Shown in pieces: positions 4,481-12,624 of a stretch of DNA of 35,317 nucleotides (positions within the stretch are counted from its first letter, which is position 1; each line of letters opens with the position of its first letter). Origin of the DNA: an uncultured Eubacteriales bacterium. Lineage in GTDB: Bacteria > Bacillota > Clostridia > Oscillospirales > Oscillospiraceae. The stretch lies in the NCBI GenBank assembly GCA_900319935.1, contig ONQJ01000013.1, positions 1-35,317 of the forward strand, given 5' to 3'. The notes below the pieces were generated by a model that was given only the letters and a program-made list of their open reading frames with translations, did no database searches and was not told where the DNA came from. Both the position numbers and the translations under genes were made by a program.

Positions 4481-4907
4481 ATGACCAGAATGAAGAAAAA
4501 GTACGTCGAGGAAGTTGCTCCTGCTCTGATGGAGAAATTCCAGTACAAGTCCGTAGCACGCCGTGTCCACCGTGGCGCGCAAGTCCGTCGCCAACTTCAA
4601 GCTCCGCGAGGGCATGAAGGTCGGCGTCAAGGTCACGCTGCGTCAGGACCGCATGTGGGAGTTCCTCGACCGTCTGTTCAACGTGGCGCTGCCCCGTGTC
4701 CGCGACTTCCGCGGCATCAGCGCCGACGCCTTCGACGGCCGCGGCAACTACTCTCTCGGCCTCCGCGAGCAGATCATCTTCCCGGAGATCGAGTACGACA
4801 AGATCGAGAAGCTGCGCGGTATGAACATCGCGATCACCACGACCGCGAAGACCGACGAAGAGGCTCGCGAGCTTTTGCGGCTCATGGGCGCTCCGTTCAT
4901 GAACTAA
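4481..4907 (+). pseudogene. rplE: 50S ribosomal protein L5 (uL5), broken by internal deletion and frameshift
   Basis: The first 25 codons (to 4555) encode a good L5 N-terminus ending MEKFQYKSV. After four bases (4556-4559) the L5 sequence resumes in another frame from GCC at 4560 ([18 protein letters not shown]) and runs to the normal end at 4907 ([17 protein letters not shown]). Against the E. coli L5 layout, residues about 26-64 are missing, roughly 113 nt net. The lost part is the first beta strands and the GVGEA-type loop involved in 5S rRNA binding. The upstream frame reads on out of frame and happens to join the rpsZ frame, so translation would yield a meaningless 195-residue product. 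L5 is normally essential, so this is an assembly error, a lesion covered by another copy, or a mixed-strain artefact. Confidence 0.9.
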
Positions 4908-4921
4908 AGGAGGAGACAACA

Positions 4922-5068
4922 ATGGCTAAGAAAGCAATGATCCTCAAGCAGCAGGCTCCGGCCAAGTTCTCCACCCGCAAGTACAACCGCTGCAAGATCT
5001 GCGGCCGCCCCCACGCCTATCTGCGCAACTACGGCATCTGCCGTATCTGCTTCCGCGAACTGGCCTAG
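4922..5068 (+). CDS. rpsZ: 30S ribosomal protein S14, zinc type (uS14), truncated by a 7-nt deletion
   Basis: The 48 codons read begin [20 protein letters not shown] and include the zinc-binding CKICGRP and CRICFREL pairs. Type Z S14 normally has 61 residues ending in a segment like YKGQIPGVRKASW. Here the frame hits TAG at 5066-5068, but the next bases encode IPGVRKASF and a TGA at 5098-5100 in a different frame. The pattern is what removal of 7 nt (an expected C AAG GGC) would give. The missing 13 residues contact 16S rRNA in the 30S head. The gene follows the damaged rplE by 14 nt with a good GGAGGAG site. Confidence 0.9.
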
Positions 5069-5084
5069 AGATCCCGGGGGTCAG

Positions 5085-5220
5085 GAAAGCGAGCTTCTGA
5101 TTTTTCCTTATGCTTCGTTGGCTGCGGCTCGCAGTATAAACGATACAGCGTCGCCTTGCCGCCTCGCCTGAGAAAAAATCAGCGCGCTCGTTCGCAGTCC
5201 GCGAGGATGAAAGCGAGCGC
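5085..5220. repeat. Nested palindromic element downstream of rpsZ
   Basis: An imperfect inverted repeat: CTGATTTTT at 5097-5105 pairs with AAAAATCAG at 5174-5182, flanked by CGAGC (5090-5094) and GCTCG (5186-5190). Inside is the hairpin CTGCG-GCT-CGCAG (5122-5134). A further inverted pair, GCGCTCG (5184-5190) and CGAGCGC (5214-5220), and a direct repeat GAAAGCGAGC (5085-5094, 5209-5218) overlap it. Its left edge covers the lost C-terminus of rpsZ. No reading frame with coding character is seen. It resembles a small non-coding palindromic repeat, but I cannot show other copies from this window. Confidence 0.55.
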
Positions 5221-5230
5221 AGAAAACAAG

Positions 5231-5273
5231 TTTTTCATCGGAGGGAGAGAGCCCCTCTTCCTCCGATAAAAAA
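5231..5273. repeat. Strong stem-loop between rpsZ and rpsH
   Basis: ATCGGAGG (5237-5244) pairs with CCTCCGAT (5260-5267), extended inwards by five pairs including one G-T (5245-5249 with 5255-5259), and outwards by a T5 run (5231-5235) against an A run (5268-5273), with one bulged C. Neither strand has a T-run after the stem, so it is not a standard intrinsic terminator. It could be an RNA processing or stability element. Confidence 0.6.
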
Positions 5274-5280
5274 GAAAATA

Positions 5281-5396
5281 GCCCGCAAGGGCAACGGGCA
5301 TTGAAAGGCTGTTGTCAATCAAGCATTGAAACAGAACCTCATTGCTACGGACCGCTTAGATGAGCGGTAACTCTAAATCAGGAGGATAAATAAACC
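5281..5396 (+). promoter_or_regulatory. Structured 5' leader of rpsH
   Basis: Three hairpins lie in the 116 nt before the rpsH start. GCCC-GCAA-GGGC (5281-5292) has a GNRA tetraloop, and its 5' arm could instead pair with GGGC at 5296-5299. CTGTTGTCAAT (5309-5319) pairs with ATTGAAACAG (5325-5334), leaving one bulged G. ACCGCT (5351-5356) pairs with AGCGGT (5363-5368). The ribosome binding site AGGAGG is at 5380-5385. A role in ribosomal protein autoregulation (for example by S8) is inference; no clear promoter is seen. Confidence 0.45.
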
Positions 5397-5808: not shown

Positions 5809-6354
5809 ATGTCCAGAATCGGAAGAGAACCCATTACCGTTCCCGCCGGTGTCGAGATCACCGTCGAGGAAAACAACCGCATCACCGTCAAGGGCCCCAA
5901 GGGCGTCATCACGCAGTCCGTTCCCGCCAACATGGCGATCGAGCGCGACGACGCGGGCGTCCTGCACGTCAAGCGTCCCGATGACAGCAAGGAGAATCGC
6001 TCTCTCCACGGTCTCACCAGAAGCCTGATCCACAACATGGTCGTCGGCGTGACCCAGGGCTTTGAGAAGAAGCTCGAGATCAACGGCGTCGGCTACCGTG
6101 CCGCGAAGGAAGGCACCAACCTGGTCATGAACCTGGGCTATTCGCACCAGATCGTCATCCCCGAGACCGAGGATATCAAGATCGATGTTCCCGATGCCAA
6201 CCACATCGTCATCAAGGGCGTCGACAAGCAGAAGGTCGGCCAGTTTGCCGCAGAAGTCCGTGGTAAGAGACCTCCCGAGCCTTACAAGGGCAAGGGCATC
6301 AAGTACGACTACGAGACGATCCGCCGCAAAGAAGGCAAGACCGGTGCCAAGTAA
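5809..6354 (+). CDS. rplF: 50S ribosomal protein L6 (uL6)
   Basis: A 181-residue L6 starting MSRIGREPITVPAGVEI at the ATG following AAGGAGGAG (5794-5802). A longer upstream in-frame ATG at 5761 lies inside rpsH and is rejected. The conserved C-terminal EPYKGKGIKYDYETIRRKEG is complete. L6 supports the sarcin-ricin loop region where GTPase factors bind. Confidence 0.97.
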   Translation: MSRIGREPITVPAGVEITVEENNRITVKGPKGVITQSVPANMAIERDDAGVLHVKRPDDSKENRSLHGLTRSLIHNMVVGVTQGFEKKLEINGVGYRAAKEGTNLVMNLGYSHQIVIPETEDIKIDVPDANHIVIKGVDKQKVGQFAAEVRGKRPPEPYKGKGIKYDYETIRRKEGKTGAK

Positions 6355-11997: not shown

Positions 11998-12624
11998 ATG
12001 GCTAGATATACCGATGCAGTTTGCCGTCAGTGCCGCAGAGAAGGTCAGAAGCTCTTCCTCAAGGGCGACCGCTGCTACACCGACAAGTGCGCGATGAACA
12101 ACCGCGCTTTCGCCCCCGGCCAGCACGGCCAGGGCCGCAGCAAGAACTCCGAGTACGGCCAGCAGCTTCGCGAGAAGCAGAAGGCCAAGCGCTTCTACGG
12201 CGTGCTCGAGAGCCAGTTCCGCAGCTACTTTGAGATGGCCGAGCGCCGTCAGGGCCAGACCGGTGAGAACCTGCTCTCCATCCTCGAGAGCCGTCTGGAC
12301 AACGTCGTTTACCGTCTGGGCTTCGCGATGAGCCGCGCCGAGGCGCGTCAGCTCGTCAGCCACGGCCACTTCACCGTCAACGGCCGCAAGGTCAACATCC
12401 CCAGCTACCAGGTGAAGCCGGGCATGGTCATCGCCCTCAAGGAGAGCAGCCGCGGGATCGAAAAGCTCAAGGCCAACATCGAGGCCAACGCATTCCGCCC
12501 CGCCCCCAAGTGGCTTGAGTACGATGCAAGCAATTTTGCAGGCAAGGTCGTCGCCGTCCCCACCAAGGAGGACATCGATCTGCCCATCGAGGAACACCTC
12601 ATCGTCGAGTTGTACTCCAAGTAA
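11998..12624 (+). CDS. rpsD: 30S ribosomal protein S4 (uS4), cysteine-containing form
   Basis: A 208-residue S4. The N-terminus has four cysteines ([18 protein letters not shown], then KCAMNNR), consistent with the zinc-binding S4 variant. The S4 RNA-binding domain ([20 protein letters not shown]) is present. S4 starts 16S rRNA assembly. Its place between rpsK and rpoA is typical of Clostridia, whereas in Bacillus subtilis rpsD lies elsewhere. Confidence 0.97.

Follow-up and report, generated by a model that had tools for sequence, protein, structure and literature searches.

Deletions in rplE and rpsZ of a draft genome are probably local assembly errors

The window, which is the whole stretch of DNA analysed here (35,317 nucleotides), starts with the S10-spc-alpha ribosomal cluster, followed by other genes, as judged from the gene names read from the translations. 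In this cluster, the rplE gene, coding for L5, is frameshifted, and when aligned with relatives, exactly 113 nt are found to be gone (Table 1). In the numbering of the intact L5 of record L032 (179 residues), the missing piece comprises residues 26 to 62, together with parts of codons 25 and 63. In a tblastn comparison with this L5 as the query, residues 1 to 25, encoded by the 5' remnant, are 92% identical to those of L032, and residues 64 to 178, encoded by the 3' remnant, match at 95.7%. The Pfam analysis finds the C-terminal domain of L5 (PF00673) to be complete, covering 94 of the 94 positions (E 2.9e-42), in a frame other than that of the ATG at 4481, and recognizes only 13 of the 57 positions of the N-terminal domain (PF00281, E 0.11), neither of which is as expected for a functional uL5.

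The gene after rplE is rpsZ, coding for S14 and normally indispensable. It is without 7 nt when aligned with relatives, 513 nt away from the deletion in its neighbour, and this second lesion generates a TAG (5066-5068), at which the 195-residue frame starting at 4481 ends. The preliminary description had reported that rplE is short by about 113 nt and frameshifted, that N-terminal residues of approximately 26 to 64 are lost and that the shifted frame stays open into rpsZ over 195 residues. All of this is borne out, with the length being exactly 113 nt when considering both L032 and the contigs of the genus, and with the spurious frame present in the list of open reading frames; the rpsZ lesion escaped the earlier reader.

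Table 1. Features of the damaged rplE-rpsZ region, in window coordinates
Feature	Position	Strand	Basis and remarks
rplE (L5), frameshifted	4481..4907	+	alignment with relatives
5' rplE remnant	4481..4554	+	begins with the ATG at 4481; 24 whole codons and two bases of the 25th; alignment
rplE junction, 113 nt absent	4554..4555	+	alignment; spacing in genus contigs
3' rplE remnant	4555..4907	+	from the final two bases of codon 63 through the stop codon; frame differs from that of the start codon
Spurious 195-residue frame, product of both lesions	4481..5068	+	list of open reading frames
Truncated rpsZ (S14)	4922..5068	+	48 of 61 residues; PF00253, E 1.7e-17; stop at residue 49 in the census
rpsZ junction, 7 nt absent	5067..5068	+	alignment
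Remaining rpsZ coding sequence	5068..5100	+	out of frame, to its own TGA at 5098-5100; sequence and alignment

The sequences beyond the two lesions are still conserved in the manner of coding sequence. When compared with the loci of the genus, excluding L003 (G004) from the tally, the 3' part of rplE, read in its own frame, differs by 7.5% at the first, 4.3% at the second and 29.5% at the third codon position, and the corresponding values for rpsZ beyond its lesion, calculated over 33 nt only, are 15.4, 8.6 and 49.7%. This coding-type conservation of the out-of-frame remnants agrees with an error or with an event of very recent date, and not with an old pseudogene. Both junctions appear to be blunt, having almost no shared bases. 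A repeat-mediated deletion in rplE, involving the 12-nt near-copies CAAGTCCGTAGC and CAAGTCCGTCGC at 4546 and 4580, was considered and rejected, as recombination between these would remove a different stretch.

To compare the same site in relatives, 102 genomes of the genus were searched with a query of 120 bases that has the rplE junction in its middle. This query is matched in 49 of these genomes, and it is matched in one piece only in the window's own genome, such that chance is not an issue. Both halves are matched in 37 other genomes (38 contigs), and in 11 genomes only one half is found. The sequence between the two halves is exactly 113 nt long in 37 of the 38 contigs; in the remaining one (G093) it is 41 nt, this contig having its own in-frame deletion of 72 nt. 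The 7 nt of rpsZ are likewise present in the aligned relatives. The sequence missing from each of the two genes in the window is therefore found at the same place in relatives, as it would be if the deletions were assembly errors.

Lesions of this kind were counted across the genus by comparing 26 genes of the cluster with the proteins of G051, in 53 of the 102 genomes, chosen by a match to rplE or to the junction query. Copies cut by a contig end to less than 60% were dropped, and rpsD, of which 12 of 44 copies are flagged, was omitted from the statistics on the assumption that this is natural length variation. Flags are found on 29 of 1144 gene copies, in 15 of the 53 genomes including the window's own, where it should be considered that some of the flags for shortness (rplO and rplF in G091, rpsC in G063) may reflect ends that vary naturally and that the flag definition missed some odd copies, such as rpsZ of G053. 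The rplE gene is the most affected (7 of 51 copies), and its seven lesions begin near seven different residues (22, 25, 75, 88, 99, 136 and 140); that of G063 is not a plain deletion, having 128 nt where 63 are expected. The other flags concern rplP, rplB, rpsC and rpsZ (three each), rpsH (two) and rpsS, rplN, rpsK, rpsM, rplO, rplF, rplR and rpoA (one each), and none of the 131 copies of secY, map and adk is flagged. In G048, rplP, rplE and rpoA are all broken, the latter with a missing and a repeated stretch. The rate of flags rises with the share of 31-mers of a gene that recurs in another of the sampled genomes (Spearman 0.50, p 0.010, 25 genes), this being a moderate correlation across genes, sought after the lesions had been seen and drawn from genomes that are not mutually independent; rpsQ and rpmC share much sequence yet carry no lesion. 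That other drafts carry similar lesions, differently placed and more frequent in the genes that share sequence, points to assembly errors.

When considering the window itself, the comparison with G051 places flags on rplE and rpsZ only, and it is because of this comparison that the rest of the cluster is regarded as whole; in one other comparison, the 24 cluster queries came from the window itself, and their matches to the window are uninformative. Gaps of four residues in map, rpsC and secY of the window are also present in other genomes. As a control outside the genus, 79 loci in which the C-terminal part of L5 is well matched were selected, excluding L032, which is a member of the genus. 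With a narrower flag definition, none of the 79 loci has an rplE lesion, and 9 of 1093 gene copies are flagged, being rpsZ in L033, rplP in L054 and seven copies of rpsC, for six of which the sole cause is stops in the C-terminal tail, which is variable. Frame breaks are thus not confined to the genus.

The positions of contig ends are also in agreement with difficulties of assembly at rplE. Among 61 genomes of the genus that were searched, 35 have a match to the L5 C-terminal domain, and in 8 of these 35 (G014, G023, G031, G032, G039, G045, G052 and G057) a contig ends within rplE. Four pairs of such contigs were compared. The two contigs of G023, and likewise those of G032, have exactly 99 identical bases in common at their ends, as would remain from a de Bruijn graph built with k = 99, and in the pairs of G031 and G057 an exact overlap is absent. 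In G031, two contigs cover the same stretch of rplE with a few differences, one of them being without 24 nt and the other retaining these. Such signs of a broken graph at rplE are seen in other genomes of the genus and not in the window's own contig, and a sliding comparison along the operon gives no clean sign of a chimera, the nearest relative changing from segment to segment. A separate observation is that the L5 C-terminal match is absent in 26 of the 61 genomes, including G042 and G054, two of the 23 genomes with a completeness of 90% or more; the cluster therefore seems to be often lost from bins.

The best explanation of the rplE and rpsZ deletions is local misassembly of a draft genome in a conserved region, where assembly is difficult, and the probability of this reading, as judged from sequence comparisons, is about 0.94. 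The genome (1.94 Mb in 150 contigs, 94.77% complete) is very probably a metagenome bin, in view of its fragmentation and of the best-matching named record, L032, being an Oscillospiraceae MAG. The ribosomal protein genes may be so alike between related species or strains that the assembly graph tangles, and the flanks would then be joined wrongly, by which 113 nt would be dropped in rplE and 7 nt in rpsZ; a mixture of strains or species would be the cause, and the junctions would be expected to be without read support. PMC7111523 reports that local assembly errors in metagenome-assembled genomes yield incomplete or incorrect protein-coding genes, and graph-type assemblers, of which IDBA-UD is an example, are described there as being susceptible to local errors. 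The lesions of the window would resemble these errors in being wrong joins inside otherwise good contigs; the difference is that the errors in that paper are recognized by lacking read support, whereas here they are deduced from the relatives and are clustered in conserved ribosomal genes. It is most likely that the living organism has ordinary, full-length rplE and rpsZ genes at this site, and equally that a shortened or split L5 is not what the sequence means, such that there would be no biological novelty.

It also has to be considered that the deletion is true in the sampled organism and that intact rplE, and rpsZ as well, lies elsewhere in its genome. The preliminary description had pointed out that either there is another copy or the sequence is wrong, and had proposed a search of the rest of the genome for a second rplE. 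This search finds none in the 94.77%-complete bin: PF00673 has one match in this bin, which is the 3' remnant at the site, PF00281 has no match above its cut-off in the own genome (the best reaching 16.1 bits versus a cut-off of 34.9), and a stretch of 143 bases of L032, covering most of the missing part, retrieves from the own genome only the 5' remnant and short pieces (E of at least 0.13). The remaining 5% or so of the genome could hold a copy, but neither half of the Pfam search nor the missing DNA detects one, two neighbouring genes would both require replacement copies, and a single L5 C-terminal match is the rule in the intact genomes of the genus, the two matches seen in G023, G031, G032 and G048 being split or overlapping pieces. 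A true deletion with a copy elsewhere is thus very improbable, and compensation of the gene loss by a second rplE is rejected, as an intact copy is not found in the 94.77%-complete bin. Between the two options of the preliminary description, a wrong sequence is favoured by the second lesion, the scattered lesions in the genus and the contig ends in rplE.

A true loss, of very recent date and affecting part of the population, as in a dying or heteroplasmic-like sub-strain, which the assembler would have chosen as the consensus, is less probable still. The 3' remnants are still coding-like, as they would be after a very recent event, but uL5 is reported to be essential in E. coli (PMC10531944), and the same class of lesion is seen in many genomes and genes, where many independent lethal losses are unlikely. 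In the same paper, E. coli with uL5 lacking the residues 73 to 80 of the P-site loop is described as viable, with an approximately 2.5 times slower growth. The window's rplE resembles this variant in that an internal piece of L5 is missing; the difference is that the E. coli deletion comprises 8 residues and is in frame, whereas here 37 N-terminal residues are lost and the frame is broken. Since uL5 is essential and the deletion of 8 residues already slows E. coli, an organism having only this rplE is not expected to be viable. Just as improbable as the recent loss is the possibility that short blunt deletions are frequent in the ribosomal cluster of this genus in living populations, with intact copies outside the bins sustaining L5 and other essential proteins.

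Least probable of all is a bypassed, recoded or split L5, the latter having its C-terminal domain made as a protein of its own from the GTG at 4563: a frame of 114 codons is open from this GTG and the frame from 4481 is open into rpsZ, but the coding information for residues 26 to 62 is absent and not found elsewhere in the bin, such that no change of frame or hop supplies it, no evident ribosome-binding site is seen upstream of the GTG when reading the sequence, and, of the 102 genomes of the genus, none but the window's own matches the junction as one piece. A programmed bypass or frameshift requires all coding information to be in the gene, and it is rejected because residues 26 to 62 are absent.

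If, as is by far the most probable, the deletions are local assembly errors, the value of the observation is practical only. Ribosomal proteins serve as markers in phylogeny and in completeness checks. The flagged genes of the cluster, found in 15 of the 53 drafts of the genus, can feed truncated proteins into databases and can lead to essential genes being wrongly reported as missing or split. Were the deletion true, life without most of the N-terminal domain of L5 would contradict what is known of 50S assembly.

Several further observations concern the layout of the operon. The rplF gene (5809-6351), which lies outside the lesions, is 92.3% identical to that of G031 and at most 82.1% identical to those of the other loci of the genus, unlike its neighbours; judging from these identities, it is possible that this closeness comes from recombination. 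Divergent types of rpsD (11998-12624 in the window) seem to exist in the genus, as the identity to G051 is 54 to 71% in many genomes, with gaps of 5 to 9 residues. The spacer between rpsZ and rpsH (5101-5396 in the window) varies from 105 to 13,287 nt across 49 contigs of the genus, in contrast to 15-18 nt between rpsH and rplF and 3-4 nt between rplO and secY, and it has the appearance of a site of insertions within the spc operon. The suggestion that the intergenic element after rpsZ is a dispersed repeat is unsupported, with one match in the own genome (E 0.001). In G044, this spacer is about 5.3 kb long, and its insert (L132:5198-9909) has an MT-A70 methyltransferase beside a BglII-type restriction endonuclease, together with an HD-domain protein and a Sel1-repeat protein; in G057 (L143 and L192), rpsZ and rpsH are on one contig at a distance of about 13.3 kb. 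In G026 (contig C12, L137), rpsH lies at 106,817 and rplE at 125,881 on the same strand, and the operon's second half apparently precedes its first.
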